From: Nitrososphaerota archaeon
GTDB taxonomy: Archaea > Thermoproteota > Nitrososphaeria > Nitrososphaerales > Gagatemarchaeaceae
Reading direction: 5' to 3'
Assembly (NCBI GenBank): GCA_027886905.1
Contig: JAPCJO010000003.1
Coordinates: forward strand, 1 to 64,000
Length of the DNA: 64,000 bases
Positions 20,551 to 34,898 of this stretch are shown one piece after another; position 1 is the first letter of the stretch, and each line of letters begins with the position of its first letter. The position numbers and the translations under genes were made by a program. The notes beneath the pieces were generated by a model. The model worked only from the letters and a program-made list of their open reading frames with translations, had not been told where the DNA came from and made no database searches.

Positions 20551-22485
20551 TCATCTCACGACTATGACCGTGACATCCGAGTGCGCCACGACGCCGGCCG
20601 AGACGCTCCCCTGGAGCAGCCTCCCGGTCGCCCCGAGGCCTCGCGTGCCTATCACTATGACGTCGGCGCCCTCCCTCTTCGCCGTCTCGGTGATTGCGTT
20701 GGCAGGAGGCCCGTTCGCCCGGATGACCGTTCCCCCCGCGACTGAGACACCCGCGCTCTTCGCCTCGCCGACCACTGTGTTGACATAGTCCTCGGCTTCC
20801 TTCTCGGCGTACTCATAGCGCTCCTTCAGGATCCCCGAACTCGACCCTCCTGCCCTTAGGCTCGAAGGATTGACGGAGGAGGGGGATGGGACTACCCTCA
20901 GGACGTCAAGCTCCGCGTGGTAGTCCCTGGCAAAGCCGATCGCCGTCTTGGCCGCGCGCTCCCCGTTCTCGGAGCCGTCCACCGCCACGAGTATCTTGTT
21001 CATGGCGAGCGACCTCTTCCCCTCCGCGATGGGAGGTGAGAGCGGGGTCGTGGCTTGCAAGGTCGTCTCCCTGGCCATCACGACCATCTTCGGGCTTCTC
21101 ATCAGAGACGCGAAGACTATCCCCACGCCGGACAGGACCGAGGCCCCGAGGAAGGCGTAGCGGAAGCCATCGACGGTCGCTGCCGCGGCCGTCACAGAAG
21201 CGCCCGCGCTCGCCGCGACCACGCCGACTATCGTAACCGCAATCGCGAGGCCGATGGGGCCGCCCACCTGCGTCGACGTGTTGATGAGCCCGGAGGCGAG
21301 GCCCTCCTCTCCCTTCCTGGCTCCGCTCAGCGCGGCTATGTTGAAGGCGGTGAAGCTCAGGGCGGCGCCGAGGGAGACGACGAGCATGTCTGGGAGGACG
21401 CCAGTCAGGAAGGGCGTCCCCAGGTGGAGCTGGGCGAGGAGGAGGAAGCCCGCGGCCTGGACCGTCATGCCCACCAGGAGGACGGGCTTGGGGCCGAAGC
21501 GGGTGACGAGCTTCGCGGAGAGGTACCCCCCCACGCTAAGGAACACCAAGGCGGTCGGGAGGAAGGCGAGCCCGGCCGAGAGGGCGGAGTACCCCTGAAT
21601 CTGCTGGAGGTAGATGGTCAGGAGGAAGATCATCGAGCTCACCGCGGCGATGGTGAGTATCGCGAGCGCGTTTGCGCTGAAGACGGCCCCGCGACGCAAG
21701 AACGAGAGCGGCATCAGCGGGGCGCCGGACCGGTTCTCGATGGCAAGGAAGAGCGCTAGGACGACGCCTGAGAGGCCGAGGGGCACGAGTGTGTCTACCG
21801 AGAGGAGACCCCTGTTCGCCGCGTTGGTCAGGGCGTAGACCAAGATCGAGAGCCCCGCGGTCACCGAGAGCGCGCCCGGAAGGTCGAGGCGCCTCTGGTT
21901 CGGGTCTCCGCGACTCTCGACGAGGAGCCGCGACGCCAGAATGGCGGTCACTATCCCTATGGGGACGTTGACGAAAAAGATAGACCGCCAACCTAGGGTC
22001 GCCGTTAGGACGCCCCCTAGGATTACGCCCGCCGCGAAAGCCGCGGACGAGACAGCCGCGAAGACGCTGAGGGCACGATTCCTCTCACGCCCTTCAGGGA
22101 AGGTGACGACGAGCAAGGAAAGGCCGGTCGCCGAGGCTATCGCGGCCCCTATCCCTTGGACAGCCCTGGCGCCGATGAGGACGCTCTCCGAGGGGGCCAG
22201 ACCGCCCGCGAGCGACGATAGCGCGAATACGACCAGACCTATGCCGAAGAGCCTGCGGCGCCCGTAGAGATCGGAGGCGCGGCCGCTGAGGAGGAGGAAG
22301 CCCGCGAAGGTAAGGCCGTAGGCGCTCACTATCCACTGGCTGTCTGCGAGCGATATCCCAAGTTCGGTGCGCATGGTGGGCAGCGCTATCTGGACTATGG
22401 AGAAGTCCAGGACGATTACGAACTGCGCCAACACAAGCAGCGTCAGAATCAGGGAGAGGCGTGGCGGTGGAGTGGGTTTCGTCAT
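20551..22485 (-). CDS. MFS drug-efflux transporter fused to a universal stress protein domain
   Basis: 644 residues. Residues 1 to about 460 form a 14-span DHA2 (EmrB/QacA-like) major facilitator: 'LDFSIVQIALPTM' in TM1, 'GRASDLYGRRRLFGIG' in the loop 2-3 signature. Residues 495-644 are a complete UspA domain (MNKILVAVDGSENGE ... VIVIGTRGLGATGRLLQGSVS) with the ATP-binding G-x2-G-x9-G-S pattern. The frame is continuous. An internal ATG at about 21003 could also allow separate translation of the Usp part. It is probably a proton-driven exporter with an ATP/stress-sensing tail. Confidence 0.88.
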   Translation of the reverse strand: MTKPTPPPRLSLILTLLVLAQFVIVLDFSIVQIALPTMRTELGISLADSQWIVSAYGLTFAGFLLLSGRASDLYGRRRLFGIGLVVFALSSLAGGLAPSESVLIGARAVQGIGAAIASATGLSLLVVTFPEGRERNRALSVFAAVSSAAFAAGVILGGVLTATLGWRSIFFVNVPIGIVTAILASRLLVESRGDPNQRRLDLPGALSVTAGLSILVYALTNAANRGLLSVDTLVPLGLSGVVLALFLAIENRSGAPLMPLSFLRRGAVFSANALAILTIAAVSSMIFLLTIYLQQIQGYSALSAGLAFLPTALVFLSVGGYLSAKLVTRFGPKPVLLVGMTVQAAGFLLLAQLHLGTPFLTGVLPDMLVVSLGAALSFTAFNIAALSGARKGEEGLASGLINTSTQVGGPIGLAIAVTIVGVVAASAGASVTAAAATVDGFRYAFLGASVLSGVGIVFASLMRSPKMVVMARETTLQATTPLSPPIAEGKRSLAMNKILVAVDGSENGERAAKTAIGFARDYHAELDVLRVVPSPSSVNPSSLRAGGSSSGILKERYEYAEKEAEDYVNTVVGEAKSAGVSVAGGTVIRANGPPANAITETAKREGADVIVIGTRGLGATGRLLQGSVSAGVVAHSDVTVIVVR

Positions 22486-22648: not shown

Positions 22649-23581
22649 TTGCCTTCCCGCCAAGAGCCGGGCGACAAGGACCCGGAAGAAATCCCAGACA
22701 AGTGCCCGAACTGCGGAAAGAAGGGCACATTCGTGAGGGACGAGGAGAGCGGGGAGATGGTCTGCAGCAACTGCGGCTTTGTCCTAAGAGAGAAGGAGGA
22801 GGAGACGGGGCCATCTTTCTCCTCCTCGGAGGCCGGCACCCTGGAGGTGACGTCAGGTCCTCCGACCTCAATCGCCCAGCCGGACATGGGACTCGCGACC
22901 GTGATTGGGAGGGAGGGCACGGACGCGTCAGGGACAGGGCTCTCATCCAGGACAAAGTCCAGCGTCGAGAGGATGCGCGTCTGGGACAGGAGAAGCCAGC
23001 CCGACCAGTCGGCCTACAGGAGCATGAGCAAGGCCTTCGACGAGATAAAGACCGTCGCGGCGAAGCTCTCAGTCGGGCAGGGGGCGATCGAGCGCGCCGC
23101 CTACATCTACAGGAAGGCGCTCGAGAAGCGTCTCACGAGGGGAAGGTCGTTGACGCAGCTCTCAGCTGCCGCGCTTTACGCGGCTTGCAGGGACCTGCAG
23201 ATCCCGAGGAGCCTGAAGGATGTCGCCGCAGCGGGAAACGTCAGCAAGAAAGACCTCTCTCGATCTTACAGGACCCTCGTTACCGAGCTCGACATCAGGA
23301 TACCTGTAGAGGACCCGATACGTTCGGTCCCGAAGATAGGCTCCGCGATAGGGGCATCCCCTCGGACGATGAGGAGGGCGCAGGAGATCTTGAGGATGGC
23401 CGCTGCGAAGGGGGTCTCCGCGGGCAAGGACCCGATGGGGCTCGCAGGCGCGGCCCTCTATATCGCGAGCCACCTCGAGGGTGAGGGAAAGTCTCAGCCG
23501 ATAGTGGCGAAGGCGTCCGAGGTGACCGAGGTCACGGTTAGAAACAGGTACAGGGCGCTCAAGTCAAGCCTGAAGCTTTGA
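22649..23581 (+). CDS. tfb: transcription initiation factor TFB
   Basis: Archaeal TFIIB homologue that bridges TBP-DNA and RNA polymerase. The N-terminal zinc ribbon has CPNCG (Cys19/22) and CSNCG (Cys39/42). A B-reader-like region with Arg/Ser follows, then two cyclin-like repeats (about residues 115-205 and 215-305), the second ending in the typical 'EVTEVTVRNRYRALK' recognition helix. The start used is TTG 22649, with TATA-like GTAAAATAG near 22610. It lies directly upstream of the stress island and could be a specialised TFB for it, though its own promoter lacks the 23-bp element. Confidence 0.92.
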   Translation: MPSRQEPGDKDPEEIPDKCPNCGKKGTFVRDEESGEMVCSNCGFVLREKEEETGPSFSSSEAGTLEVTSGPPTSIAQPDMGLATVIGREGTDASGTGLSSRTKSSVERMRVWDRRSQPDQSAYRSMSKAFDEIKTVAAKLSVGQGAIERAAYIYRKALEKRLTRGRSLTQLSAAALYAACRDLQIPRSLKDVAAAGNVSKKDLSRSYRTLVTELDIRIPVEDPIRSVPKIGSAIGASPRTMRRAQEILRMAAAKGVSAGKDPMGLAGAALYIASHLEGEGKSQPIVAKASEVTEVTVRNRYRALKSSLKL

Positions 23582-23641: not shown

Positions 23642-23664
23642 TTACATTTTCGTGCAGAAAATAC
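23642..23664 (+). promoter_or_regulatory. 23-bp promoter element, copy 1
   Basis: TTACATTTTCGTGCAGAAAATAC, then 6 nt, then TATA-like CTTAGAT. The GTG start of the YqjD-like gene is 35 nt after the element. Same length and orientation relative to the gene as the other copies. Confidence 0.8.
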
Positions 23665-23698
23665 GTCCTCCTTAGATGAAGGCGCCGCCTCTCTTTTC

Positions 23699-24037
23699 GT
23701 GAGAATCTTGGCCAACAAGGAGAAGGAATTGAGAAGCGCCGCTGAGCGGTCGCTCAGAGAGACCCGAAGGGATTTTGACAAGAGGATCGACGAGATCAGG
23801 GCCGAGCTCCAAGAGATAGGACCCGAGGCGGTAGAGAAGGTCGAAAGATCCCTGAATGATTTGAAGAACGACCTGAAGGCCGAGCTGAAGACCGGCTTCG
23901 ACGACGTCAACGGCATGTTTGAGGACGAGGTCGAATCAGGCAGAGAGCAGGTCCGCGCGCACCCACTTCTCGCGGTCGGGGTCGCGGTCATGGCGGGCGT
24001 CATCGTCGGGATGCTGCTAGGAAAAAACAAAGACTAG
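23699..24037 (+). CDS. YqjD/ElaB-like (DUF883) membrane-anchored coiled-coil protein
   Basis: 112 residues. Residues 5-85 are a charged amphipathic coiled coil (EKELRSAAERSLRETRRDF...). The C-terminus has 'HPLLAVGVAVMAGVIVGMLLGK', the single glycine-rich span that ends DUF883 proteins. In E. coli YqjD anchors ribosomes at the membrane in stationary phase. That role is known for the family in bacteria and only inferred here. GTG 23699 fits a leaderless start from the CTTAGAT box. The next gene begins 6 nt after its stop. Confidence 0.75.
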   Translation: MRILANKEKELRSAAERSLRETRRDFDKRIDEIRAELQEIGPEAVEKVERSLNDLKNDLKAELKTGFDDVNGMFEDEVESGREQVRAHPLLAVGVAVMAGVIVGMLLGKNKD

Positions 24038-24043
24038 TTTCCG

Positions 24044-24319
24044 ATGCTTCAGAAAATCATTCGGCACCTCATGGAGGACGCCACCGACGGGCTCAAGCAC
24101 GACGTCGAGGCGTACGCCAACAAGGTCCTCAAGCAGATGATGAGAACGCTGGTTCTCGCCGGCGTGGGCGTCACATTCTTGGCAGTCGGATCCGTCTTTC
24201 TCCTGGTCGGCGTCGTGGCTTCTCTCAGCAAGTTCATGTTCAGCGGGTTGGCCTGGGGACTTGTAGGCCTCATCGTTGCGCTGGTCGGTGGGGTGCTTGT
24301 CCTGCTGATCAGACGGTAA
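24044..24319 (+). CDS. holin-like/YqjE-type (DUF1469-like) membrane protein
   Basis: 91 residues: an amphipathic N-terminal helix, then two long hydrophobic segments (about 35-58 and 65-87) ending with Arg-Arg. This layout, and its place directly after a DUF883 gene, parallels bacterial yqjD-yqjE. Sequence identity with YqjE itself cannot be judged by eye. It belongs to the operon driven by promoter copy 1. Confidence 0.65.
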   Translation: MLQKIIRHLMEDATDGLKHDVEAYANKVLKQMMRTLVLAGVGVTFLAVGSVFLLVGVVASLSKFMFSGLAWGLVGLIVALVGGVLVLLIRR

Positions 24320-24337
24320 CGGGTCGAGGCTAGGCCG

Positions 24338-25537
24338 TTGAACCCGACCGAGAAGCCGATGGACGGCTCTCCGCTGCCAAAGTCGGTCCTCAAATGGGCG
24401 GCGGCGGGGCTGGTGTTGAGCTCCGCGGTCGTCATCGCGATCACGATCTTCTCGGGCGTGACCCTGTCTGACCTAGCGAAGCTCGGCTACCTGACGTTCG
24501 GTCTGGCGGCCGCTGTGTCTGCATGCAGACTCCTTGTCCAGATTGCGAGGTTTAGGGTCGTAACGACCGGACTGAGCAGCGACACAAAAATGGACCTTAC
24601 AGGCCTGCCCATCACCAGGGTGGCTAGCGAGTTCGTCTCGGAGTCGACGCCTGCGACCAGCATGGGGGTGTTCCTGCGCACCTCGTGGTTGGCTGGGAAG
24701 GGGGTGGACGGGGGAAGGGCGCTCTGGATAGGCTACTTCGAAGTGCTCATCGAGATATACGTAGGCGGCGGCCTCGCGCTCATCGCGGCGGCGTATGCGC
24801 TGTCCAGGGGGTCGGTGGCCCTAGGCTCATCGATTGCCGTAATCGCGACGGTCCTGATTGTCGGGTACACGTTGGTGTTTGTAATCCCGGCGGTAAAGAC
24901 CATCAAGGTCCCTCACCGAGTATTTGGCATCATGTCGCGACTGATAGGCGGGCCTAGGGCGACGGCCCTCTATCTCCGCGCTGTCGTGGGCTCTCTGAAC
25001 TTTTCGCTCGCGGCGCGCGCAATCGTAAGCAGGCGCACGCTGCCAGTGGTGGTGAAGGCGGTCCTTCTCACGCTCCTCGAGGACTTCTTGGAAGGGGCGG
25101 CCCTTTGGCTCGTGCTGAACGCCGCAGGCCTCAAGATTGACCTCGTCTCCGCCACCCTTGCGGCGTACGGCGTCGCGGCGGTCGCCCAACTCCCGATAAC
25201 CATCGGCGGCGCGGGTGTGACGGAGCTCACAATGCAAGCATACCTCGTTTCGGTCTACGGGTTCTCATCTTGGGCAGCCGTCGTGCTGTGGAGGATCGCC
25301 ACGTATCAGGTGATGTTGGCGGTCACGGGGATAGTGTTCATGGTGTACCTGCGCAAGAATGCTCATCGACCGTCCAAAGTCGAGGAGAAGGTGCCTCTGG
25401 AGGTCGTCCCGGTCGTAAGCCCGAACGCCCGCTCACTCGGCAATGGTCAAGCGCTTCCCTCCGGATTGGACTGTGCGGAGGCGCCAGCTGGAGGTTTATC
25501 GGACGACTCGCGCAACCGTCTTTCTCGGCAGACCTAG
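24338..25537 (+). CDS. flippase-like membrane protein (UPF0104 / LPG-synthase TM family)
   Basis: 399 residues with about eight to nine hydrophobic spans. The family pattern is seen in 'FVSESTPATSMGVFLRTSWLAGKG' and in the late 'LPITIGGAGVTELTMQAYLVSVYGFS', the G-G-x-G-V/I motif of UPF0104. Members include the membrane part of lysylphosphatidylglycerol synthase and the archaeal glycosyl-lipid protein AglD. It probably handles lipid-linked substrates at the membrane. The start is TTG 24338. It is the third gene of the copy 1 operon, with a 3' end overlapping the convergent 25534 gene. Confidence 0.78.
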   Translation: MNPTEKPMDGSPLPKSVLKWAAAGLVLSSAVVIAITIFSGVTLSDLAKLGYLTFGLAAAVSACRLLVQIARFRVVTTGLSSDTKMDLTGLPITRVASEFVSESTPATSMGVFLRTSWLAGKGVDGGRALWIGYFEVLIEIYVGGGLALIAAAYALSRGSVALGSSIAVIATVLIVGYTLVFVIPAVKTIKVPHRVFGIMSRLIGGPRATALYLRAVVGSLNFSLAARAIVSRRTLPVVVKAVLLTLLEDFLEGAALWLVLNAAGLKIDLVSATLAAYGVAAVAQLPITIGGAGVTELTMQAYLVSVYGFSSWAAVVLWRIATYQVMLAVTGIVFMVYLRKNAHRPSKVEEKVPLEVVPVVSPNARSLGNGQALPSGLDCAEAPAGGLSDDSRNRLSRQT

Positions 25538-25866
25538 AGATCGGGCATCGCTTGCGGCAGTGCCTTTGCGCCCCTGCGGACTGAGCTGACTGTGGCGTTG
25601 AAGTCCAGGACGCCATCTATCTCCAAGACCTCGAGCGACCTTCCTGTCGTAAGATGTTTCACTATCGCTTTTTCCAGCGACAGCGTTCCTGCAGGGCCGA
25701 AAAGCGCAAGCAACTTTACGTGGAATTCCATCGGGTCGGGGAAACCGTCAGCCATCTTCATGTGGACCAAGACCGCCTCCGTCCCACTATGACCAAGGAC
25801 CTTGTCGAGCCCGGCGTGCACCGAGTCGTTAAAGGTGGTCGCGAACAATTCCTCCACTTTACTCAC
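25534..25866 (-). CDS. small helical protein, paralogue B of the GvpD-like operon
   Basis: 110 residues, clearly homologous to the 27298-27627 product. Shared features are GL-KVLG-SGT at the start, 'FPDP-EF--KLLA-FG' in the middle, 'SLE--IVK-L' and 'I-G--DF-AT---------A' at the end. It is predicted to be mostly helical and cytosolic. It starts 4 nt after the ATPase stop, so it is the last gene of a three-gene operon. Function is unknown; it may be a sensor or adaptor for the ATPase. Confidence 0.7.
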   Translation of the reverse strand: MSKVEELFATTFNDSVHAGLDKVLGHSGTEAVLVHMKMADGFPDPMEFHVKLLALFGPAGTLSLEKAIVKHLTTGRSLEVLEIDGVLDFNATVSSVRRGAKALPQAMPDL

Positions 25867-25870
25867 CTGA

Positions 25871-27301
25871 TCACACGAGTTGAGTCAGCGACGGGAGGAT
25901 GGGGTCATCGAGGTGCTGCAGCGCGTAAATCCCTGTGTAGGGCTTCACGCCGAACATCACGACCGCGCCATCCCTCACGGACAGCCTGGCGTGACTGGAG
26001 CTCATCGAGAGGATTCGCGACCTGATGGGTGAGTTTGCTGGCAGGAAGAGGATGTGCGCATCGCGCGATTGCTGTAGGGTGATTATCTCCTGGGACGTCA
26101 CCTCCAGAAGCGAGTCGAGGTCCGAAGCGAAGAGGTTCTCGAGAGCCGCTATGGAATTCACGTGTAACATGGCCTGGTCGACCGATTTCTTCCTAAGCCT
26201 TGTCGTCTCGTTCGTGACCACTTCGTGGATCTCGTTGGGCGTGGCGTGTTTCGTCATGCTGGTTGTCTCGAGGTCGCTCGACCTTAGGACGTCGAGGATG
26301 TGGAGCCTGTCGCTCGGCGTCCCCTCACCGACGGCCCTGGTCAGGACGGAACTGGTCAGGCCCGTGTTTGCTCCGGGCAACGGCAGGAGGATCGCGCTCC
26401 TCCCCATCGCCAGGAAGTTGATGATTGGTGGAAGCTCGATCGCTCTGAGGGCGAAGTAGGGGACGTCCTCGTCGTATTCGACGGTCAGCGTGCTCCCTGG
26501 GACCATCCCCCCGAGCAGCCGGTCCAATGCCGGGCTCCCGAGGGAATATGCCCCGTCGATGTCCGGCACGGGTGCGAATTTTCGTATCTCCGAGTAGTTG
26601 GGCGTGGCATACGGCTCGAAGAAGGTGAATCTTCCGTCCATGAGCGTGAAGAGGTACTTGCGCTGAGGTATCTTCGTCCCGCGCAGCTTGTGAATGGTGA
26701 ATTCCCGCACCGATCGGTCCTGCTCTTCGACGGTGGACATCTCGAGGATCCCGTCGACGAGGTAGTCGATGGTCGTCGCGCCCGGCTCTTCGCTTACGAA
26801 GACGAGCTGCGCGCCCGAGTTGTTCGAGACGGCGATGAGGGTCTTCTCCGCCCGCAATCTCTCCTTCGAGTCGAATTCCTTGGCAAGGGCGTCCCAGCTG
26901 TCGAACACTACGGTCTTGACCTTCTTGGGGTCCGTCAGTCGCATCACGAACTCCAGGGCCGAGGTCGCGTCTTCGAGCCTGACGTCCAGAAATTCTTGGT
27001 TCTCCAGGGTCTCCTTCATGGCGGGTATGTGCGTCTCGAGGAGCTCCTGCGGAACTCTGGAGGAGATGTACGCGCCGTTCCCCTTCCCCGCCGCCTTTAG
27101 GATCTCCAGCGCGACTGTCGTCTTTCCGGTGCCCGCTAGACCCTTGATGAGCATCGTCCTTATCGGACCGTTCATGAGTTGCTTCAGGCCTAGCAGCGTG
27201 GGGATCCTTGCTTCTGCCAGCTCAGACGATTCTGCCCGTGAGGTCTCAGTCCGGCGATTCGTCTGAACCGGAGCAGGGGCGTCGATTTCTTGTGTTGTCA
27301 A
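25871..27301 (-). CDS. RecA-superfamily ATPase of the GvpD/KaiC-like type
   Basis: 476 residues. The N-terminal half has Walker A GLAGTGKTT (about residues 54-62) and a Walker-B-like 'VKTVVFDSWDAL'. The second half begins 'GAYSLGSPALDRLLGGMVPGS', the KaiC-like opening, but its own P-loop is degenerate (GSTLTVEYDED). This asymmetry resembles archaeal GvpD, a repressor of gas-vesicle genes; no gas-vesicle genes are seen here. Its start overlaps the upstream paralogue by 4 nt. It is probably a signal-transduction ATPase working with the two flanking small proteins. Confidence 0.75.
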   Translation of the reverse strand: MTTQEIDAPAPVQTNRRTETSRAESSELAEARIPTLLGLKQLMNGPIRTMLIKGLAGTGKTTVALEILKAAGKGNGAYISSRVPQELLETHIPAMKETLENQEFLDVRLEDATSALEFVMRLTDPKKVKTVVFDSWDALAKEFDSKERLRAEKTLIAVSNNSGAQLVFVSEEPGATTIDYLVDGILEMSTVEEQDRSVREFTIHKLRGTKIPQRKYLFTLMDGRFTFFEPYATPNYSEIRKFAPVPDIDGAYSLGSPALDRLLGGMVPGSTLTVEYDEDVPYFALRAIELPPIINFLAMGRSAILLPLPGANTGLTSSVLTRAVGEGTPSDRLHILDVLRSSDLETTSMTKHATPNEIHEVVTNETTRLRKKSVDQAMLHVNSIAALENLFASDLDSLLEVTSQEIITLQQSRDAHILFLPANSPIRSRILSMSSSHARLSVRDGAVVMFGVKPYTGIYALQHLDDPILPSLTQLV

Positions 27302-27627
27302 GCTCTAGCACTCTTCTCTATTGCGGCGATGGTGGCGTCGAAGTCGAAGGCGCCTTCTATCTTCATTAGGTCCAGCGACCACTTGAACCTCAGTGCGAGG
27401 TCCTTGACTATCACTCTCTCCAGCGACTGCGCCCCACTTACGCCGAAGATCGCCAGTAGCTTCTTGTTGAATTCACGGGGGTCAGGGAAGTCATCGACCA
27501 TCCTCATGTAAAGCAGGACGGATGCGGTTCCACTCTCCCCTAGGACCTTGTTCAAACCGCCTTGCACTGCGTCAAGGTATGAAGGTGCGAACTCTTGCCT
27601 TGCTGGGCTCTCCGAGGATGCTTCCAT
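27298..27627 (-). CDS. small helical protein, paralogue A of the GvpD-like operon
   Basis: 109 residues, first gene of the operon. It shares with its paralogue the 'GLNKVLGESGT' and 'DFPDPREFNKKLLAIFG' segments. No membrane span or metal motif. ATG 27627 is 39 nt downstream of promoter element copy 2, with TTGTTATACT as TATA-like box. The pattern loosely recalls small helical proteins common in Nitrososphaeria, but I cannot name a family. Confidence 0.7.
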   Translation of the reverse strand: MEASSESPARQEFAPSYLDAVQGGLNKVLGESGTASVLLYMRMVDDFPDPREFNKKLLAIFGVSGAQSLERVIVKDLALRFKWSLDLMKIEGAFDFDATIAAIEKSARA

Positions 27628-27665
27628 CGCTGATCAAAGCGGGCACCAGAGTATAACAAGAGAAT

Positions 27666-27688
27666 GTATTTTCTGCAAGGAAACGTAC
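27666..27688 (-). promoter_or_regulatory. 23-bp promoter element, copy 2
   Basis: On the minus strand GTACGTTTCCTTGCAGAAAATAC, then 6 nt, then TTGTTATACT. It drives the paralogue A - ATPase - paralogue B operon. The left half is the most divergent of the seven promoters; the right half is exact. Confidence 0.75.
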
Positions 27689-27810
27689 TCGTCGGTTCGG
27701 CCGTGGGCCAGGGCGGAAATCCAAAAGATTTAGAGCTAGGCCAGGGAATTCTGGGACCTGCCACTGGGTCGCCTACGCGTGAAACTTGAGGAGGGCGGTA
27801 TTTTCCCAAG

Positions 27811-27833
27811 TTGCATTTTCTTACAAAAAATAC
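27811..27833 (+). promoter_or_regulatory. 23-bp promoter element, copy 3
   Basis: TTGCATTTTCTTACAAAAAATAC, 6 nt, CTTAAAT. It points to the GtrA gene. Copies 2 and 3 lie back to back, about 120 bp apart, in the divergent promoter region. Confidence 0.75.
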
Positions 27834-27883
27834 CTGCTTCTTAAATCACAAGTCCACGGTCAAGACTCGAAGATGGCGGTAGA

Positions 27884-28387
27884 GTGAAGCGCGACATGAC
27901 AGCTACCAGCGTCGAAAGGGAGGTCGGTGAGCTTGAAATGCGGTATGGCGTCGTCAAGACGCTCAGGTTCGCGATTGCAGGGGCGGTGGGCTTTGGGGTC
28001 ACAGAGGTCGTCTTGACCATCGGCCTTCTGATCTTGTTCGGAAAGCTGAGTCTTCCCCATTCTAGTTTTGCATCGCCAGCGCTCCTCGGCTTGGATGCTC
28101 TCTCGCTCGTGATTGGCGTCTCGGCTTCCTTCTTCGTAAACGAACGGATTACGGTTCACGTGCCGAAGACTGTCAAGGGTGAGGAGGCCAACAGGTTCAA
28201 GAGGTTTCTGAAGTTTCAGGCAGTGAGCGGGATCGGGAATACAGGCATCGTGGTGGTCCAGCTCGTCCTCTTGGCGACTCTCGAGCTCTCGCCTCTCTTG
28301 GGCACAATCATAGGGGCGGTGGCCACCTATCCAATCGTGTACTTCATCTCGATCAAGTATGTCTGGAAAGCACACCGGACTAGATGA
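27884..28387 (+). CDS. GtrA family membrane protein
   Basis: About 167 residues with four spans and the GtrA pattern: 'KTLRFAIAGAVGFGVTEVVLTIGLL' in TM1 and 'ASFFVNERITVHVP', equivalent to the conserved (F)xxNxxWTF segment. GtrA proteins are thought to move lipid-linked sugars across membranes. Start GTG 27884 or ATG 27896. A four-codon ORF (ATG 27873) ends across the GTG and might couple translation. Promoter element copy 3 lies 51 nt upstream. A second GtrA gene is at 54350. Confidence 0.8.
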   Translation: MKRDMTATSVEREVGELEMRYGVVKTLRFAIAGAVGFGVTEVVLTIGLLILFGKLSLPHSSFASPALLGLDALSLVIGVSASFFVNERITVHVPKTVKGEEANRFKRFLKFQAVSGIGNTGIVVVQLVLLATLELSPLLGTIIGAVATYPIVYFISIKYVWKAHRTR

Positions 28388-28663
28388 CCGGCCAGCCAGG
28401 CCAGAAGTGACATCATTTTCCAGGTGTGCCGATTGCCTTCTTGAAGGTCAGGCCGTTGCGCCCTCTTCCAAATGGGCACAAGTCACGAGCAGCCGTGAGC
28501 TTCCGGGTTACAGAAGATTCCTGAGGGGACAGATTGCGTTCGTTGACGAAAGGGACGGCAAAAAGAAAACGCGAAAGCGCTTCCGCCTGGAAGCAGAAGG
28601 CTGATGGAAGATCCGCCGAGCCTCGAGAAGGGGGGCCCAGGCGACCTCCTCGCATCCAGTCTT
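28388..28663. other. spacer without a convincing gene
   Basis: 276 bp between the convergent GtrA gene and the small membrane gene. The + strand ORF 28359-28604 overlaps the GtrA end and shows only an isolated CxxC; composition and lack of a promoter argue against it. I see no RNA structure or repeat here. Confidence 0.4.
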
Positions 28664-28825
28664 CTACTTGCCGGTAACCGGATTTTTGCCCTGGTACAGT
28701 CTGTAGCCCACCACTACTATGGCAGCGACTACTAGAATGTTGATTAGTTCTCCCCCGATGCCGCCTATTAGCCCGAAGAACCACAGGGCTAGAAGGACCA
28801 CTGCTACGGTCCAGAAAAGATCCAT
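28664..28825 (-). CDS. DUF5670/lmo0937-like small membrane protein
   Basis: Too short for the ORF track: 53 residues, 'MDLFWTVAVVLLALWFFGLI' then 'GGIGGELINILVVAAIVVVG' and YRLYQGKNPVTGK. Two spans separated by a Gly-rich turn, with the L-W-T-x-A-V-x-L-L-x-L-W start of the bacterial lmo0937 family, which in bacteria is often linked to general stress. It lies 13 nt after the 28839 gene and belongs to the copy 4 operon. Confidence 0.72.
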   Translation of the reverse strand: MDLFWTVAVVLLALWFFGLIGGIGGELINILVVAAIVVVGYRLYQGKNPVTGK

Positions 28826-28838
28826 TTGTGCTCGACTC

Positions 28839-28967
28839 CTAGATGTGGAAGTTCAGTGTGATGAATCCGAAGAAGGCGAGGACCGCGACCACTATGATCG
28901 CAAAGACTATCATGTCTCCGCCATCTCCACTTCTTTTCGTCCTCAGGAATTTTGAGTTTATTGACAT
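28839..28967 (-). CDS. 42-residue single-span membrane protein
   Basis: Reads MSINSKFLRTKRSGDGGD then a hydrophobic segment MIVFAIIVVAVLAFFGFITL and ends NFHI. The ORF track starts it at 29033, inside the promoter element. ATG 28967 lies about 27 nt after the TATA-like CTTAAGT and 37 nt after element copy 4, matching the spacing at sister promoters. Basic N-terminus in, one span. Function unknown. Confidence 0.65.
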   Translation of the reverse strand: MSINSKFLRTKRSGDGGDMIVFAIIVVAVLAFFGFITLNFHI

Positions 28968-29003
28968 GACGTAACAAGAAGCATCATCGCACTTAAGACG
29001 CGT

Positions 29004-29026
29004 GTATCTTCTGCAAGGAATTGTAA
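29004..29026 (-). promoter_or_regulatory. 23-bp promoter element, copy 4
   Basis: Minus strand TTACAATTCCTTGCAGAAGATAC, 6 nt, CTTAAGT. It serves the two small membrane-protein genes at 28664-28967. Confidence 0.8.
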
Positions 29027-29123
29027 CAGGCATCTAAGGACTAGAGCCTGGTTGCCTCAGGCTGAATTGACACATCAAGAGAATAGAAGCGTTGCAAGCG
29101 GTTGGATTCGATTTGACCTAGGA

Positions 29124-29175
29124 AATTAAAAAATTGAAACCCGGTTGCGGCAATCCTTTCCGTCACCGCAACCGG
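29124..29175 (-). terminator. hairpin plus T-tract terminator
   Basis: A perfect 10-bp stem CCGGTTGCGG/CCGCAACCGG (29141-29150 with 29166-29175) and a 15-nt loop. On the minus strand it is followed by GTTTCAATTTTTTAATTT. It lies about 75 nt after the stop of the 29250 gene, so it probably terminates that transcript. Confidence 0.6.
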
Positions 29176-29249
29176 TCTCCGGACTTGAGTCCACAGTCCA
29201 GAATAGGTCTAGGTCTGATCAACCCACACCTATCTGGATCTGCGGCGTT

Positions 29250-30032
29250 CTACCAGTTGGCGTCGAACGCGTACGAGTGGTCGTTCGTGTTGAGGGTCAA
29301 CGTTCCGGCCTGCGCGGTGCCAGTCACGTTGCCGGGGATCGCGTTCCAGGACACTTTTGCCGAATACGACTCGCGGTTCGGGAGTTGGATCGCGTACTCG
29401 CCGTTGGCGACCACGGCCAAGTACATCTGGCCCGTGGAGGTGTTCGTGAACTCGACGCTCGCAGGGTAGGTATCTACCTTGTTAAGAGGAGAGAACCTGC
29501 CTGAGACCGTCACGGTCGGATACCCTTCCTTGATTGGCATGGCTGCAATCGACCCGAACTTGTCCACCGATATCGACCTGTCCCCATCCTTCACTTCTAC
29601 CATCGACTCGTTGTCCACGTTTACGGCCTCTGGGATGCGGAAGTTGAGCAACCCGTCTCGAGGCAGTGGGAGCTCGTACCTTGCCACTCCGGCCGGGTCG
29701 AGCGCGCTGAGTTGATTGCCGTCGTAGGAGACCCTGCACTTCTCAACGTATCTGTTGCCCCTTACGATGATGGCCCAGTTACTGGGGAAGGGCGAGGAGA
29801 CTCTCTCCTTCAAAGTCTGGAGATAGACCTCTGATTGCAGCTTGTCCACGACGATGACCATGACTTGGTCGCCGACATCGACATCTGCATCCTCTCGCAC
29901 CGGAGAAACGATGAACTTCCCTGCTCCGGTCAGCCTCTCGATTTTTCCCTCAACCACAAGGACGCCACGCTTCGACTCTGACACGATCATTCTTTCCGCT
30001 CCTGACTTATCGGTCTCAGTAATGATAGACAT
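29250..30032 (-). CDS. uncharacterised beta-rich protein
   Basis: 260 residues without signal peptide or membrane span. It appears to be built of several beta domains: an N-terminal strand-rich part with 'KRGVLVVEGKIERL', a middle part, and a C-terminal segment from about residue 175 ('YPTVTVSGRFSPL ... SVEFTNTSTGQMYLAVVANGEYAIQLPN') resembling carboxypeptidase-regulatory-like beta sandwiches. It is the only gene preceded by two tandem copies of the 23-bp element. ATG 30032 is 37 nt after the proximal copy, with TTGTTATAG as TATA-like box. Function unknown. Confidence 0.65.
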   Translation of the reverse strand: MSIITETDKSGAERMIVSESKRGVLVVEGKIERLTGAGKFIVSPVREDADVDVGDQVMVIVVDKLQSEVYLQTLKERVSSPFPSNWAIIVRGNRYVEKCRVSYDGNQLSALDPAGVARYELPLPRDGLLNFRIPEAVNVDNESMVEVKDGDRSISVDKFGSIAAMPIKEGYPTVTVSGRFSPLNKVDTYPASVEFTNTSTGQMYLAVVANGEYAIQLPNRESYSAKVSWNAIPGNVTGTAQAGTLTLNTNDHSYAFDANW

Positions 30033-30068
30033 AGGACAAAGTGGGTGACCACGCTATAACAAGCCGAC

Positions 30069-30091
30069 GTATTTTTTGCGCCAAACCGTAT
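30069..30091 (-). promoter_or_regulatory. 23-bp promoter element, copy 5a (proximal)
   Basis: The right half GCGCAAAAAATAC on the minus strand is conserved, the left half less so. It is followed by 6 nt and TTGTTATAG. It overlaps copy 5b, with a 19-nt repeat period. Confidence 0.65.
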
Positions 30092-30110
30092 TTTTTGCAC
30101 TTGATTGTAA
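30088..30110 (-). promoter_or_regulatory. 23-bp promoter element, copy 5b (distal)
   Basis: Minus strand TTACAATCAAGTGCAAAAAATAC, a close match to the consensus. It lies 19 nt upstream of copy 5a and so is not itself at the TATA-proximal distance. Confidence 0.7.
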
Positions 30111-30191
30111 TCCGGACGGAGAGGCGTTCGACGGCCAAATTACGAATAGCGTTAGGTTTAAGAAAATCCGAACGCAAGCATACACGTTCGC

Positions 30192-30710
30192 ATGAAACCG
30201 AAGACGGCGACAGCCTCCTTCAGACTGGACGAGTCCGCGCTCGCTGCCATCCAGGAAGACGCCAAGAAGCAGAATGTCAGCGTGAACACGTTGCTCAATC
30301 AGCTCGTCCTGACCTACGCCAACTTCGACCGGCCGATGAAGCGGTTTCGCATGATAAAATTGCCGGCGTCGACCTTCAAACACCTGCTGCTGGCAGCTAC
30401 AAATGAGACGGTGACGGAGGCCGGGCACTCAACCGGGGAGGACGTCCCGAAGACGTACATGAGAGCCAAGTGGGGGGAGGTCACCGTGGAGAACGCCCTG
30501 AATTATCTCAAGATCACTGCCGACCACACCAACCTCTTCGAATACAGCGAGGTGACGCGAGGCGGGAAGGTGAACGTGACTCTATCGCACGACTTCGGCG
30601 CCAAGGGGAGTCTCTTCCTGCAGAGGTATGTCCAGGCAATATTCGAGCCGCTTGGAAAGCCGCCCAGGTTCCTACCCGACGAGAATGCCGTCGCCTTTGA
30701 GATTCAGTGA
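30192..30710 (+). CDS. ribbon-helix-helix protein with unknown C-terminal domain
   Basis: 172 residues. The first 45 (ATASFRLDESALAAIQEDAKKQNVSVNTLLNQLV) fit a ribbon-helix-helix DNA-binding fold. The rest is an alpha/beta domain I do not recognise, ending 'FLPDENAVAFEIQ'. A TATA-like GGTTTAAG at about 30152-30159 precedes ATG 30192, without the 23-bp element. As a DNA-binding protein in the middle of the element-bearing genes, it is one candidate for the element's regulator. Confidence 0.68.
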   Translation: MKPKTATASFRLDESALAAIQEDAKKQNVSVNTLLNQLVLTYANFDRPMKRFRMIKLPASTFKHLLLAATNETVTEAGHSTGEDVPKTYMRAKWGEVTVENALNYLKITADHTNLFEYSEVTRGGKVNVTLSHDFGAKGSLFLQRYVQAIFEPLGKPPRFLPDENAVAFEIQ

Positions 30711-30746
30711 GAGCCGCCCCGCCCGTCAAGCGCTCCGAATTTTCCG

Positions 30747-30769
30747 TTACAATCTCTTGCAGAAAATAC
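30747..30769 (+). promoter_or_regulatory. 23-bp promoter element, copy 6
   Basis: TTACAATCTCTTGCAGAAAATAC, the form closest to consensus, then 6 nt and TTCAATAG. ATG 30814 of the HMA-like gene is 45 nt downstream. Confidence 0.82.
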
Positions 30770-30813
30770 GCCCGGTTCAATAGGCGCGCGGCTGCAATTC
30801 TCGCAGGACATCT

Positions 30814-31068
30814 ATGACAAACGGGAAACGGCAGGCAACTGCCATCCTGAAGATACAAGGCATGAGCAAATCCGGACGAGCCGAGAGCTTGAGGCGGTCG
30901 GCCGCCGGGCTGGACGGAGTCTTCCTTGTGGACGTCAACTATATCTTGGACAACGTGACAATTGGCTACGACCCGGACAAACTGACGCTCGCCCAAATCA
31001 GGAGGAAGGTAGTCCCGAGCACCCCGACAACGCTTCGCGCGAAGCTTGATTCACGACGACGGGTCTGA
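30814..31068 (+). CDS. HMA-fold protein lacking the metal-binding CXXC
   Basis: 84 residues following the heavy-metal-associated domain pattern ('ATAILKIQGMSKSGRAESLRRSAAGLDGV', then 'NVTIGYDPDKLTLAQIRRKV'). The loop that normally reads GMTCxxC is GMSKSGRAE, so both metal-binding cysteines are gone. Copper or zinc transfer is therefore unlikely; a protein-protein or other ligand role is possible. It is controlled by element copy 6. Confidence 0.7.
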   Translation: MTNGKRQATAILKIQGMSKSGRAESLRRSAAGLDGVFLVDVNYILDNVTIGYDPDKLTLAQIRRKVVPSTPTTLRAKLDSRRRV

Positions 31069-31077
31069 GCCCATCGC

Positions 31078-32028
31078 TCAAGTTGCCGCTGGTCGAGACT
31101 TTCTCAGCCAAGCCAATGTGTCTCGGATTCCATCTTCGTAGCTCCTTGCAGGATACTTCATTCCGAAGAAGTCCTCGAATTTGCTTCCGTCCAGGATGAG
31201 AGGCTCCTCTGTCAGGTATTGCATTTCCGCGAACGCGCGTGCGGTAGAGTTGAAGAGACCCGCTATCTGGACGAAAAAGCGGCTTGTCCCTGTCATCTTC
31301 GCCTCGAAGCCCATCTGCGCGTAGACGCGCGCTATGAAGTCGCGGACGCGAATTGGCTCTGGTCCCGGCACGTTGAAGTCCTGGCTGGACGCATCGGGCC
31401 TTTCAGAGGCCGCGACCATCGCCTTCGCGGCGTCAGAGATGAAGATGAACTCGTGGATTGCATCGAGCTTCCCATACCAGCGTGCCCGCTTGTTCTTGAG
31501 CGCCGACCGGAATATCCCGTCGGCGACGGAGGCCGCATTGGGACCGTAGTAATCCGGAAAACGCATGATCGCGCAGGGCACCGAGCCCTCACGCGACAGT
31601 CGCATGAAGTCGCCTTCCAGTCCGAGCCTGATTCGGCCTTTCTCGGAGCAGGGATTTCTTGGGTGATTCTCGCCGACCTTCTCTGTCCCGCAGTGGCCGT
31701 AGATGTAGACGTTGCCTGGGAAGACCATTCGCGCCTTCGCCTTGCCCGCCGCGTTGGTTATCCCGCGATGCATCTCGGGCAGGGTGGACCATCGCGAGTA
31801 GGGCGCGTTGACGCAGTTGTGGAAGACCTCTACCCCGTCGAACGCCTTCTCGAGCGTCCCAGCGTCTTCGACCGAGCCCTCGACCATGTCCACCTTGTCG
31901 GGGCTGGCGAAGACCGTACTCGCCTTGGCGGGACTCCGCACTAGCGCCCTGACCGGCCTACCGGAGGAGGTCAGCTCGTTGACTACTGCGCTGCCGAGCG
32001 ACCCCGTGGAGCCCAGCACGAGTTGCAA
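31078..32028 (-). CDS. NAD(P)-dependent epimerase/dehydratase family protein
   Basis: 316 residues. An N-terminal Rossmann motif GSTGSLG with 'RALVRSPAK', an atypical-SDR/extended-SDR pattern, 'NVYIYGHCG' at the catalytic Tyr region, and a C-terminal substrate-binding part. The classical YxxxK is not intact (Y-G-H-C-G), so reductase activity is uncertain. It begins 25 nt after the DUF4342 gene on the same strand and is probably in the copy 7 operon. Confidence 0.75.
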   Translation of the reverse strand: MQLVLGSTGSLGSAVVNELTSSGRPVRALVRSPAKASTVFASPDKVDMVEGSVEDAGTLEKAFDGVEVFHNCVNAPYSRWSTLPEMHRGITNAAGKAKARMVFPGNVYIYGHCGTEKVGENHPRNPCSEKGRIRLGLEGDFMRLSREGSVPCAIMRFPDYYGPNAASVADGIFRSALKNKRARWYGKLDAIHEFIFISDAAKAMVAASERPDASSQDFNVPGPEPIRVRDFIARVYAQMGFEAKMTGTSRFFVQIAGLFNSTARAFAEMQYLTEEPLILDGSKFEDFFGMKYPARSYEDGIRDTLAWLRKSRPAAT

Positions 32029-32053
32029 CGCAAAGCGCCCCGACGTGAGAGAC

Positions 32054-32404
32054 TCAGGCGGTGGCTACGAGCGGCTCTGACGGCCTGCTCTTCCTCTCGA
32101 CCTCGATGGTGCACTTGGTCGCCAAGGCCGCGATCGCTCCCGCAGCCGCTAGCCAAGGCGCGAGGAGGACTCCGACGACTCCCGCCGTGACGGGTATCTC
32201 GAGGAGGGACTTGCCGCTTTCGTCCCTCACAGTGATCTTTGACACGTTCCCCTCGTGGACAAGCTCCTTGACCTTCTTCGTGACTTCGTCCGCCGAGACC
32301 GAGAACTGCTGGGTCCACGTCTTCTTTCCCACTTCGGTTCCGCACGCGTGACAGAACTTCGCGTTATCGACAAGGTTGGCGCCGCAGCTTTGACAGGTAT
32401 CCAT
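32054..32404 (-). CDS. zinc-ribbon DUF4342 membrane protein
   Basis: 116 residues. An N-terminal zinc ribbon (CQSCG ... CHACG), then a DUF4342 domain: 'SADEVTKKVKELVHEGNVSKITVRDESGKSLLEIPV', a hydrophobic span 'AGVVGVLLAPWLAAAGAIAAL', and 'KCTIEVER'. DUF4342 function is unknown. The ORF track merges it with upstream frame; ATG 32404 is the correct start, 47 nt after element copy 7. Confidence 0.82.
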   Translation of the reverse strand: MDTCQSCGANLVDNAKFCHACGTEVGKKTWTQQFSVSADEVTKKVKELVHEGNVSKITVRDESGKSLLEIPVTAGVVGVLLAPWLAAAGAIAALATKCTIEVERKSRPSEPLVATA

Positions 32405-32450
32405 GAGAGTCTCCAGCTCAAAGAGCCCGACGATTCTACTTAAGGGGCAC

Positions 32451-32473
32451 GTATTTTCTGCACGAGATTGTAT
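32451..32473 (-). promoter_or_regulatory. 23-bp promoter element, copy 7
   Basis: Minus strand ATACAATCTCGTGCAGAAAATAC, 6 nt, CTTAAGT. It drives the DUF4342 gene and probably the epimerase gene. Confidence 0.82.
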
Positions 32474-33284: not shown

Positions 33285-34898
33285 TTATCGCCTAGCCGCC
33301 CGGCGGGACGCGCTCCCCGTCGCGGGCGGGGAGAGCACACCCAGGAGCTTCGCGCCGTCGGGGCTCCCCCACCCCGTGCAGGCGTCCCAGCCCGGGCCTG
33401 CGTCGTACGCCCCGTTCGTGCCGGAGACGACGTCGTAGAATGCTGAGGCGGACGCCTTCTGGTAGAGGAGCGGATTGATGTAGCCGACTGGTTTACCGAT
33501 ACTCTGGTTGATGAGAGTCAGGAGGCCGGTCCAGAGGGGAGCGACCGCGCTCGTGCCGCCCACGGTTATCTGCTGTCCGTCCACGACGACTGTGTACCCC
33601 GTCTGAGGGTCGGCGTCTCCCGAGACGTCCGGGACACCGCGCCCTACCCTCCCTCCCGGGTTTGCCGACGAGGGCACGCCGGCCCCCGCCTGCCAGGACG
33701 GCAGGGCGAAGACGTCGCTCACTCCCCCTCCCGTCGCCCCGCCGCTCGGAAGGTCGTCCCACACAATCTGGCTGGTTATCTTGCCCGCCGCCTCGTTCAG
33801 GTTCGTCCCGCCGCAGCCGAGGACGTACTGGGACGACGCGGGGTAGTCTACGTGCGCCAGGCCGTCGGTCACCCCGTCTGAGGAGCCCCCGTCGCCCGAC
33901 GCGGCGCACACGGTGACACCCAGCGCCGCCGCGTCCTGGAAGGACTGGTCGAGGGCCTGGATGCCCTGGGAGGTCCACTCCGACTCTGCGCTCCCCCAGC
34001 TGATGGAGATTATCGAGGGAGTCCCTTGGGTGCCGTGGAGGGCGGCTTCGACCGCGTCCACGAAGCCCGCGTCCGTGTTGGGGGCGAAGTATACCAGGAC
34101 CTTTGCCTTGGGCGCGTTCGCCCCGGCGACCTCTATGTCGAGGAGGACCTCGGCGTCAGGGCCGTTTGTGTCTCCGGTGGGAGAGTTTGAGGCGCCGTCG
34201 ACGGAGACCGAGGTCACGCTCGGGGGCGCGATGCCGAGGTCGGAGAAGTATGTCTGGATGTCGCTCGGCGAGTATCCGCCGCCCAGCTCGATGATGCCGA
34301 GCGTCTCCCCGGAGCCGTCCTCCCCTGAGGGGAAGTCGTAGAGGCTGCCGACCTGGGTGGGGGTGTATGAGACGCCGGCCGCCGCGGCGGGCCTGATGCG
34401 GAAGTGCGCGCGGGCCTGCGGGCGGTTGTCCAACCCGAGCACCGCGCTGACCAGCGGCAAGAGCTCTGGGGAGAGGTATACGGGCCCTGTGCGGCCGCGA
34501 TAGGGCCCCCTCTCGGGGTGCACGTAGCGCGAGAGGCTCACATTGAAGGCCGCGGAGAACTGCCCGACCGTCCCCGTCAGCACGACGGAGCGCTTCGCCG
34601 GGCTCGCTTCCAGGACCTTCAGGGAGTTGTCCCTGGCGAAGTCACGCACCTTGGCCAGCTCGTCGCGGGTCGAGCCGAACGACTTTGAGAACTCGGACCT
34701 CGTCGGGTAGGACCGCGAGCGGGGCAGCTGGGAACCGAGCCGCTTCACCAGGGAGAGCTCCAGGCTAGGAGCCCTCGGGCGCAGCACGACGATCACGCGG
34801 ATGCCCTCCTCTGGGTCGAGCTTTCCCGAGACTCGGGACCCCTCCAGGGGCTTGCGTTCGCTGCCCGTAAGCGGTGCGCGCGCGCTACGTGACGGCAT
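33285..34898 (-). CDS. sedolisin family (S53) serine-carboxyl peptidase with propeptide
   Basis: 537 residues. The N-terminal 190 form the pro-kumamolisin activation domain ('SYPTRSEFSKSFGSTRDELAKV...'). The catalytic domain has Glu/Asp in 'DAEVLLDIE', the oxyanion Asp in 'AASGDGGSSDG', the nucleophile Ser in GGTSAVAP, and the calcium-site C-terminus 'DAGPGWDACTGWGSPDG'. Such enzymes work at acidic pH. A TATA-like box at about 34922-34932 places the transcript start near ATG 34898, and no signal peptide is visible, so the export route is unclear. Confidence 0.9.
   Translation of the reverse strand: MPSRSARAPLTGSERKPLEGSRVSGKLDPEEGIRVIVVLRPRAPSLELSLVKRLGSQLPRSRSYPTRSEFSKSFGSTRDELAKVRDFARDNSLKVLEASPAKRSVVLTGTVGQFSAAFNVSLSRYVHPERGPYRGRTGPVYLSPELLPLVSAVLGLDNRPQARAHFRIRPAAAAGVSYTPTQVGSLYDFPSGEDGSGETLGIIELGGGYSPSDIQTYFSDLGIAPPSVTSVSVDGASNSPTGDTNGPDAEVLLDIEVAGANAPKAKVLVYFAPNTDAGFVDAVEAALHGTQGTPSIISISWGSAESEWTSQGIQALDQSFQDAAALGVTVCAASGDGGSSDGVTDGLAHVDYPASSQYVLGCGGTNLNEAAGKITSQIVWDDLPSGGATGGGVSDVFALPSWQAGAGVPSSANPGGRVGRGVPDVSGDADPQTGYTVVVDGQQITVGGTSAVAPLWTGLLTLINQSIGKPVGYINPLLYQKASASAFYDVVSGTNGAYDAGPGWDACTGWGSPDGAKLLGVLSPPATGSASRRAARR

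Follow-up and report, generated by a model that had tools for sequence, protein, structure and literature searches.

A TATA-phased 23-nt promoter element and its candidate ribbon-helix-helix regulator in a Gagatemarchaeaceae archaeon and its relatives

Seven neighbouring promoters in a 64-kb stretch of a Nitrososphaerota archaeon genome (positions 1 to 64,000 of contig JAPCJO010000003.1, assembly GCA_027886905.1; hereafter the window) share a 23-nt element, which an initial annotation of the sequence had proposed as the mark of a regulon. We confirmed that this shared element is real and found that it keeps a fixed distance from the TATA box. In related genomes it accompanies genes for a ribbon-helix-helix (RHH) protein, encoded in the window at 30192-30710 (+). 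The reading that we favour, at a probability of roughly three in four, is that this protein binds the element and activates transcription through recruitment of TFB and TBP, the window holding one regulon of a wide family.

A phased element at seven promoters

All seven 23-mers lay at the coordinates first reported for them, each oriented toward its gene. On the forward strand they occupy 23642-23664 (TTACATTTTCGTGCAGAAAATAC, with the TATA-like CTTAGAT at 23671-23677), 27811-27833 (TTGCATTTTCTTACAAAAAATAC, CTTAAAT) and 30747-30769 (TTACAATCTCTTGCAGAAAATAC, TTCAATA, in the promoter of a gene for an HMA-like protein), and on the reverse strand 27666-27688 (GTACGTTTCCTTGCAGAAAATAC, TTGTTATA), 29004-29026 (TTACAATTCCTTGCAGAAGATAC, CTTAAG) and 32451-32473 (ATACAATCTCGTGCAGAAAATAC, CTTAAG). 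The remaining promoter, also on the reverse strand, carries a doublet, a distal copy at 30088-30110 (TTACAATCAAGTGCAAAAAATAC) lying 19 bp upstream of a degenerate proximal copy at 30069-30091 (ATACGGTTTGGCGCAAAAAATAC, TTGTTATA), giving eight copies at seven promoters. The claim that 6 nt separate the terminal AATAC from the TATA-like box stood in every case, with the refinement that in the doublet it is the proximal copy that is in register. Start codons follow 34-50 nt downstream of each element (35-51 nt in the initial annotation); an alternative ATG for the 27811 element lies 62 nt on.

A weight matrix (33-bit) built from the seven sites gave them 36-43 bits in the 64-kb window, against 20 bits for the 30069 copy, and held-out sites scored 29-41 with leave-one-out matrices. 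The maximum in 50 Markov shuffles was 16.5 bits. Other promoters of the window lack the element, as had been noted: the best non-element site reached 6 bits, against 36 for the lowest of the seven. Matrix scores, shuffles and recurrence in other genomes led us to reject chance similarity, and an RNA element was likewise rejected, the Rfam search of the window returning a tRNA-Pro only. Genome-wide scans were pattern searches. The exact core TGCAGAAAATAC occurs four times in the 1.61-Mb assembly, always inside the window cluster; four one-mismatch core matches on other contigs all lack the full element, and pattern scans found no full element beyond the cluster in this assembly, which is 77% complete and may be missing additional sites.

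The element had been described as an imperfect inverted repeat of AGATTGTAA and AGAAAATAC centred on CTTGC. That arrangement was not among the best internal symmetries and gave way to a direct repeat, TTRCA-N5-TTRCA, with a 10-bp period, which fitted better in two independent site sets and is completed by an AC at element positions 22-23. Direct repeat and AC keep a constant register relative to the TATA box: an AT-rich core occupies positions 33-36 in the element frame, so the spacing from element to TATA box is fixed, with the element about one helix turn ahead of the box. The register was the same in 33 sites of clade-A RHH genes (those of at least 65% identity) and 33 sites from other families, 66 sites in many genera. 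Repeats, AC and TATA box are spaced about one helical turn from each other, so bound dimers would lie on the same DNA face. The canonical AA of the B recognition element (BRE), at positions 27-28, is almost absent; counting element promoters alone, the two positions held A in 5/33 and 1/33 of clade-A sites and in 1/33 and 0/33 of the others, and pyrimidines prevail where a canonical BRE would lie, between element and TATA box. A 19-bp tandem like that at 30069/30088 also occurs in the relative G003 (L083, 8009/8028), and its presence in two genomes suggests cooperative binding of further dimers.

The host was placed in the genus of Ca. Gagatemarchaeum stordalenia, in the family Gagatemarchaeaceae (PMC10640624); its relative G001 is PLUF01. 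At orthologous promoters the element recurs both within this genus and in a second one of the same family; in these genera, reversed-pattern controls gave no matches in two scans and one in a third. It stands upstream of all clear orthologues of the HMA-like gene (10/10, in nine genomes), of the DUF883-like gene in three genomes (kept in G001 and G007), of the DUF4342 gene in two (kept in G001), and of a gene for a 141-aa protein of unassigned family in G001 and G007. Sites in these last two genomes are scattered over several contigs, which makes this a regulon and more than a local repeat. The regulon first proposed is therefore borne out: the motif is phased with TATA boxes rather than placed at random, and it is conserved upstream of orthologues in other genomes. 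Across the order, taken to be Nitrososphaerales, an exact phased pattern gave 20 matches and no controls in the window's family and was noisy in AT-rich families; in one family, presumed to be Nitrososphaera-like, a hand count found about 74 matches against 18 controls. Element-like matches in one genome (G011) were dismissed as chance, having neither TATA register nor an RHH gene.

Pairing of the element with RHH genes

The RHH gene was the gene most widely shared near elements, occurring at 12 other loci with 42-85% identity. Among 46 genomes of the family, clade-A RHH and element occurred together in 11 and were both absent from 35, neither being found alone (11/0/0/35; Fisher 7e-11, uncorrected for phylogeny); a stricter definition of the element gave 10/1/0/35. 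Relatives of the protein were present in 235 of 400 genomes of the order and in 65 of 250 sampled from the phylum. We derived a generic 23-nt pattern, NTRCA-N6-TRCA-N6-AC, from the window's family. Within 200 bp of 94 RHH genes its strict form pointed away from the gene 39 times, toward it once and was never inside it. For 68 RHH genes outside the window's family, TATA-phased matches numbered 19 away, none toward and none inside, and 254 kb of far sequence from the same set, both strands counted, held none.

Variation in the right half of the element follows the RHH clade and the predicted DNA-contacting strand of the protein. The strand KTATASFRL pairs with the right half TGCARAAAATAC, KTSTFTFRI with TACAKTRRAGAC, KTSTVSFRI with TACAATGTAAAC and KTVTISFRI with a GTAC-type end, and RHH paralogues within one genome (G001, G066) carry different elements. 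These comparisons indicate that the window is one case of a family of putative RHH regulators and their elements that spans the order and is wider than one regulon. Neighbours of the RHH gene across loci include HMA-like, membrane, chaperonin, metallo-beta-lactamase and multicopper oxidase genes. Two loci showed damaged genes, either through assembly error or decay: a clade-A RHH gene with an internal TAG, both flanking elements being kept (L099, G021:C10:6564-7079), and RHH gene fragments on a G001 contig (G001:C12, L078).

Pfam RHH_1/CopG matched the window protein weakly, and RHH_1, CopG, HicB and NikA profiles matched members of its family weakly; profile matches in the PDB were AvtR, MazE7, NikA, CopG and Arc. 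The AlphaFold2 model (pLDDT 93) has two RHH helices (residues 14-26 and 31-52) followed by an alpha/beta domain, and its N-terminal strand is unformed, as expected in a monomer model when the sheet needs a strand from each of two chains. Profiles and predicted structure together place the protein in the RHH (MetJ/Arc/CopG) superfamily, with the RHH part at about residues 1-52 and the C-terminal domain at 46-172. The latter has an invariant His133 and a nearly invariant Ser140. Its natural Foldseek matches were Bet3/TRAPP, BcsD, the V4R domain of PoxR (TM 0.61) and soluble guanylate cyclase, at modest E-values of 1e-3 to 3e-2, and V4R, HNOB and TRAPP profiles were absent from the 25 families listed for 62 RHH family members. 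With its predicted V4R/Bet3/H-NOX-like fold, the domain is probably a sensor of a ligand, a redox state or a metal. We also considered an antitoxin of a type II toxin-antitoxin system and rejected it: no toxin gene was found, and the elements point away from the RHH gene.

Proposed mechanism and its alternatives

We propose that the protein encoded at 30192-30710 binds the element. At least two RHH dimers would occupy the direct repeat TTRCA-N5-TTRCA together with the AC next to it, all on a single face of the DNA and ending directly upstream of the BRE position. Bound RHH protein would then recruit TFB and TBP to a promoter that has no good BRE, activating from the place that TFB-RF1 and GvpE occupy at their promoters. 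The C-terminal domain probably sets this activity through the ligand, redox state or metal that it senses, and paralogues across the order would use their own element variants. Activation is favoured because of the position of the site and the weak BRE. Several observations weigh against this scheme. For about half of the distant paralogues of the RHH gene no element could be recognised in the flanking 200 bp, which divergence may explain; the covariation is partly phylogenetic, because neighbouring genes and sites share ancestry; and the likeness of the C-terminal fold is modest (TM about 0.5-0.6), several of the top Foldseek matches being designed proteins.

Most characterised RHH proteins are repressors, and the window protein could bind the element and mainly repress its targets until a signal at the C-terminal domain relieves the repression. 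At several ammonia-oxidiser loci only 2-31 nt separate the element from the start codon of the RHH gene; a protein bound there would probably block its own promoter, and autorepression of the RHH gene is plausible at such sites. At the targets, however, the element overlaps neither BRE nor TATA box, and it keeps a constant helical phase ahead of a spacer that is rich in pyrimidines and has no BRE, an arrangement known from activator sites in archaea, so that we regard general repression as unlikely.

The initial annotation had offered either a dimeric activator or a TFB/BRE-like contact next to the TATA box. A dimeric or oligomeric activator is the part that we retain, with the RHH protein as the named candidate; a dedicated TFB contact is not favoured, because the neighbouring TFB fails to track the element and the BRE position is pyrimidine-rich. 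That TFB gene (22649-23581, +) lies directly upstream of the cluster, and another TFB gene lies near the RHH gene in three other genomes, as would suit an element serving as the extended BRE of a specialised TFB. Yet G001 has elements without a close orthologue of the window TFB (best 56%), whereas two genomes (G013 and G017) with TFBs equally similar to it (54-56%) have no element. Moreover, element and TATA box stand 6-7 nt apart, whereas a BRE would abut the box, and variants of the element track RHH clades. This account is the most improbable of those we weighed; TFB-like matches numbered 3-11 per genome in the ten Gagatemarchaeaceae genomes searched. Scarcely more credible is a third possibility, that another regulator, for example of HTH_45 or Lrp type, binds the element and that the RHH gene is a linked, co-inherited neighbour. 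RHH binding to the element is something we infer, and G007 has one HTH_45 gene that is preceded by an element; against this, no other gene is common to so many element-carrying loci, and the pairing persists for RHH paralogues in other families with different neighbours.

Target genes and relation to known systems

Targets in the window include a gene for a DUF883/ElaB-like membrane-anchored protein (23699-24037, +; start codon uncertain), followed, probably in the same operon, by a holin-3-6-like small membrane protein and an LPG_synthase_TM protein (24044-25537, +). A 109-aa protein of unassigned family (27298-27627, -) is another, with a paralogue at 25534-25866; between these two genes for paralogous 109-110-aa proteins sits that of a GvpD/KaiC-like P-loop ATPase (25871-27301, -), probably in one operon with 27298 and apparently controlled by the 27666 element. 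Haloarchaeal GvpD counteracts the activator GvpE, and by analogy with this opposition the ATPase may have an anti-activator role. The further targets are a GtrA-like membrane protein (27884-28387, +), a 42-aa protein with a single transmembrane segment (28839-28967, -) in a probable operon with a DUF5670/lmo0937-family membrane protein (28664-28825, -), a 260-aa protein of unassigned family (29250-30032, -) divergent from the RHH gene, an 84-aa HMA/CopZ-like protein without cysteine (30814-31068, +) and a zinc-ribbon DUF4342 protein (32054-32404, -). A major facilitator superfamily transporter fused to a universal stress protein domain (20551-22485, -) is encoded near the cluster without an element, and a Kumamolisin-type protease with a pro-domain at 33285-34898 (-).

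In the second genus the element is followed by a 31-35-aa open reading frame, with a chaperonin gene (Cpn60_TCP1) no more than about 45 nt beyond it. The small reading frame is basic (e.g. MATNQQAKAPGTKSGNRIMDYLRRMKARLSR) and conserved between element and chaperonin at six loci, and a chaperonin gene lies behind the element in six genomes. No such pair was seen in the window's genus, and a heat-shock regulon, the first idea from the chaperonin genes, is therefore kept as a possible role only. Because the targets mix chaperonin, DUF883, DUF1328, DUF5670 and other small membrane proteins, they suggest a role in envelope or general stress, or in proteostasis.

At paralogous loci in the window's genus, a small protein that looks HMA-like is once more the downstream target, and in several families a persulfide-dioxygenase-like rhodanese-rhodanese-metallo-beta-lactamase protein is the divergent one. 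In four genomes of another family (f10; loci L247-L250) the RHH gene is convergent with that of a NirK-like multicopper oxidase, whose promoter holds a TTGCAAATGTTTGCA..AATAAAC-type element in register. This oxidase has a C-terminal plastocyanin-like domain, and its best NCBIfam match, below cut-off, is copper nitrite reductase; the locus offers a lead on the regulation of a NirK-like copper enzyme. Apparent targets in ammonia oxidisers include NirK-like and persulfide-dioxygenase-like genes. We would suggest, tentatively and at a little under even odds, that Thaumarchaeota, ammonia oxidisers among them, have in an expanded family of RHH proteins with V4R/Bet3/H-NOX-like sensors, and in the cis code TTRCA-N5-TTRCA-N6-AC-N6/7-TATA, a main system of promoter activation in which each protein is paired with its own variant of the code; members would control such genes and perhaps respond to nitrogen-oxide, sulfur or metal stress.

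Searches of the literature, subscription papers and preprints aside, brought up neither a described pairing of regulator and site like this one in Thaumarchaeota nor anything relevant on an RHH activator in them. Sites that can be read from sequence would allow regulon prediction in uncultured soil archaea and ammonia oxidisers; the natural series of paralogue/site pairs bears on how RHH proteins choose DNA, and the system could show how an RHH protein acts as an archaeal activator.

Among known activators, TFB-RF1 of Thermococcales binds a 13-nt palindrome, TCTGAANTTCAGA (PMC5937170), and GvpE of haloarchaea uses an upstream activating sequence of about 20 nt adjacent to the BRE, at divergent promoters and with a close distance to the BRE that is essential (PMC4390858). 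The element resembles the sites of such activators in lying directly upstream of BRE/TATA at a fixed distance (66 sites here), and its promoters share their weak BRE (element promoters alone being counted here). It differs from the TFB-RF1 site in being a direct repeat, and the candidate regulator, unlike TFB-RF1, is of the RHH type, carries a sensor-like domain and has many paralogues that come with their own sites. The likeness to GvpE extends to a site of about 20 nt by the BRE, divergent promoters and a GvpD-like P-loop ATPase in the cluster, whereas GvpE is a leucine-zipper-like protein, and of the targets examined here none was recognised as a gas vesicle gene.

By profile and predicted structure, the window protein shares an N-terminal RHH domain with AvtR, CopG and Arc. 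Proteins of that type are short or have other C-terminal parts, and many are repressors, whereas the window protein combines a predicted V4R/Bet3/H-NOX-like domain with an activator-type site. MsvR of methanogens, whose DNA-binding domain is not RHH, also unites an archaeal DNA-binding domain and a V4R-type sensor domain in one regulator, and no sequence homology of the window C-terminal domain to the MsvR sensor domain was detected. MsvR is a V4R-domain redox regulator (PMC3729527). The RHH/element family, as yet undescribed in the literature searched and with a well-supported candidate regulator, would work in the manner of the known archaeal activators with a different protein architecture and a different site.

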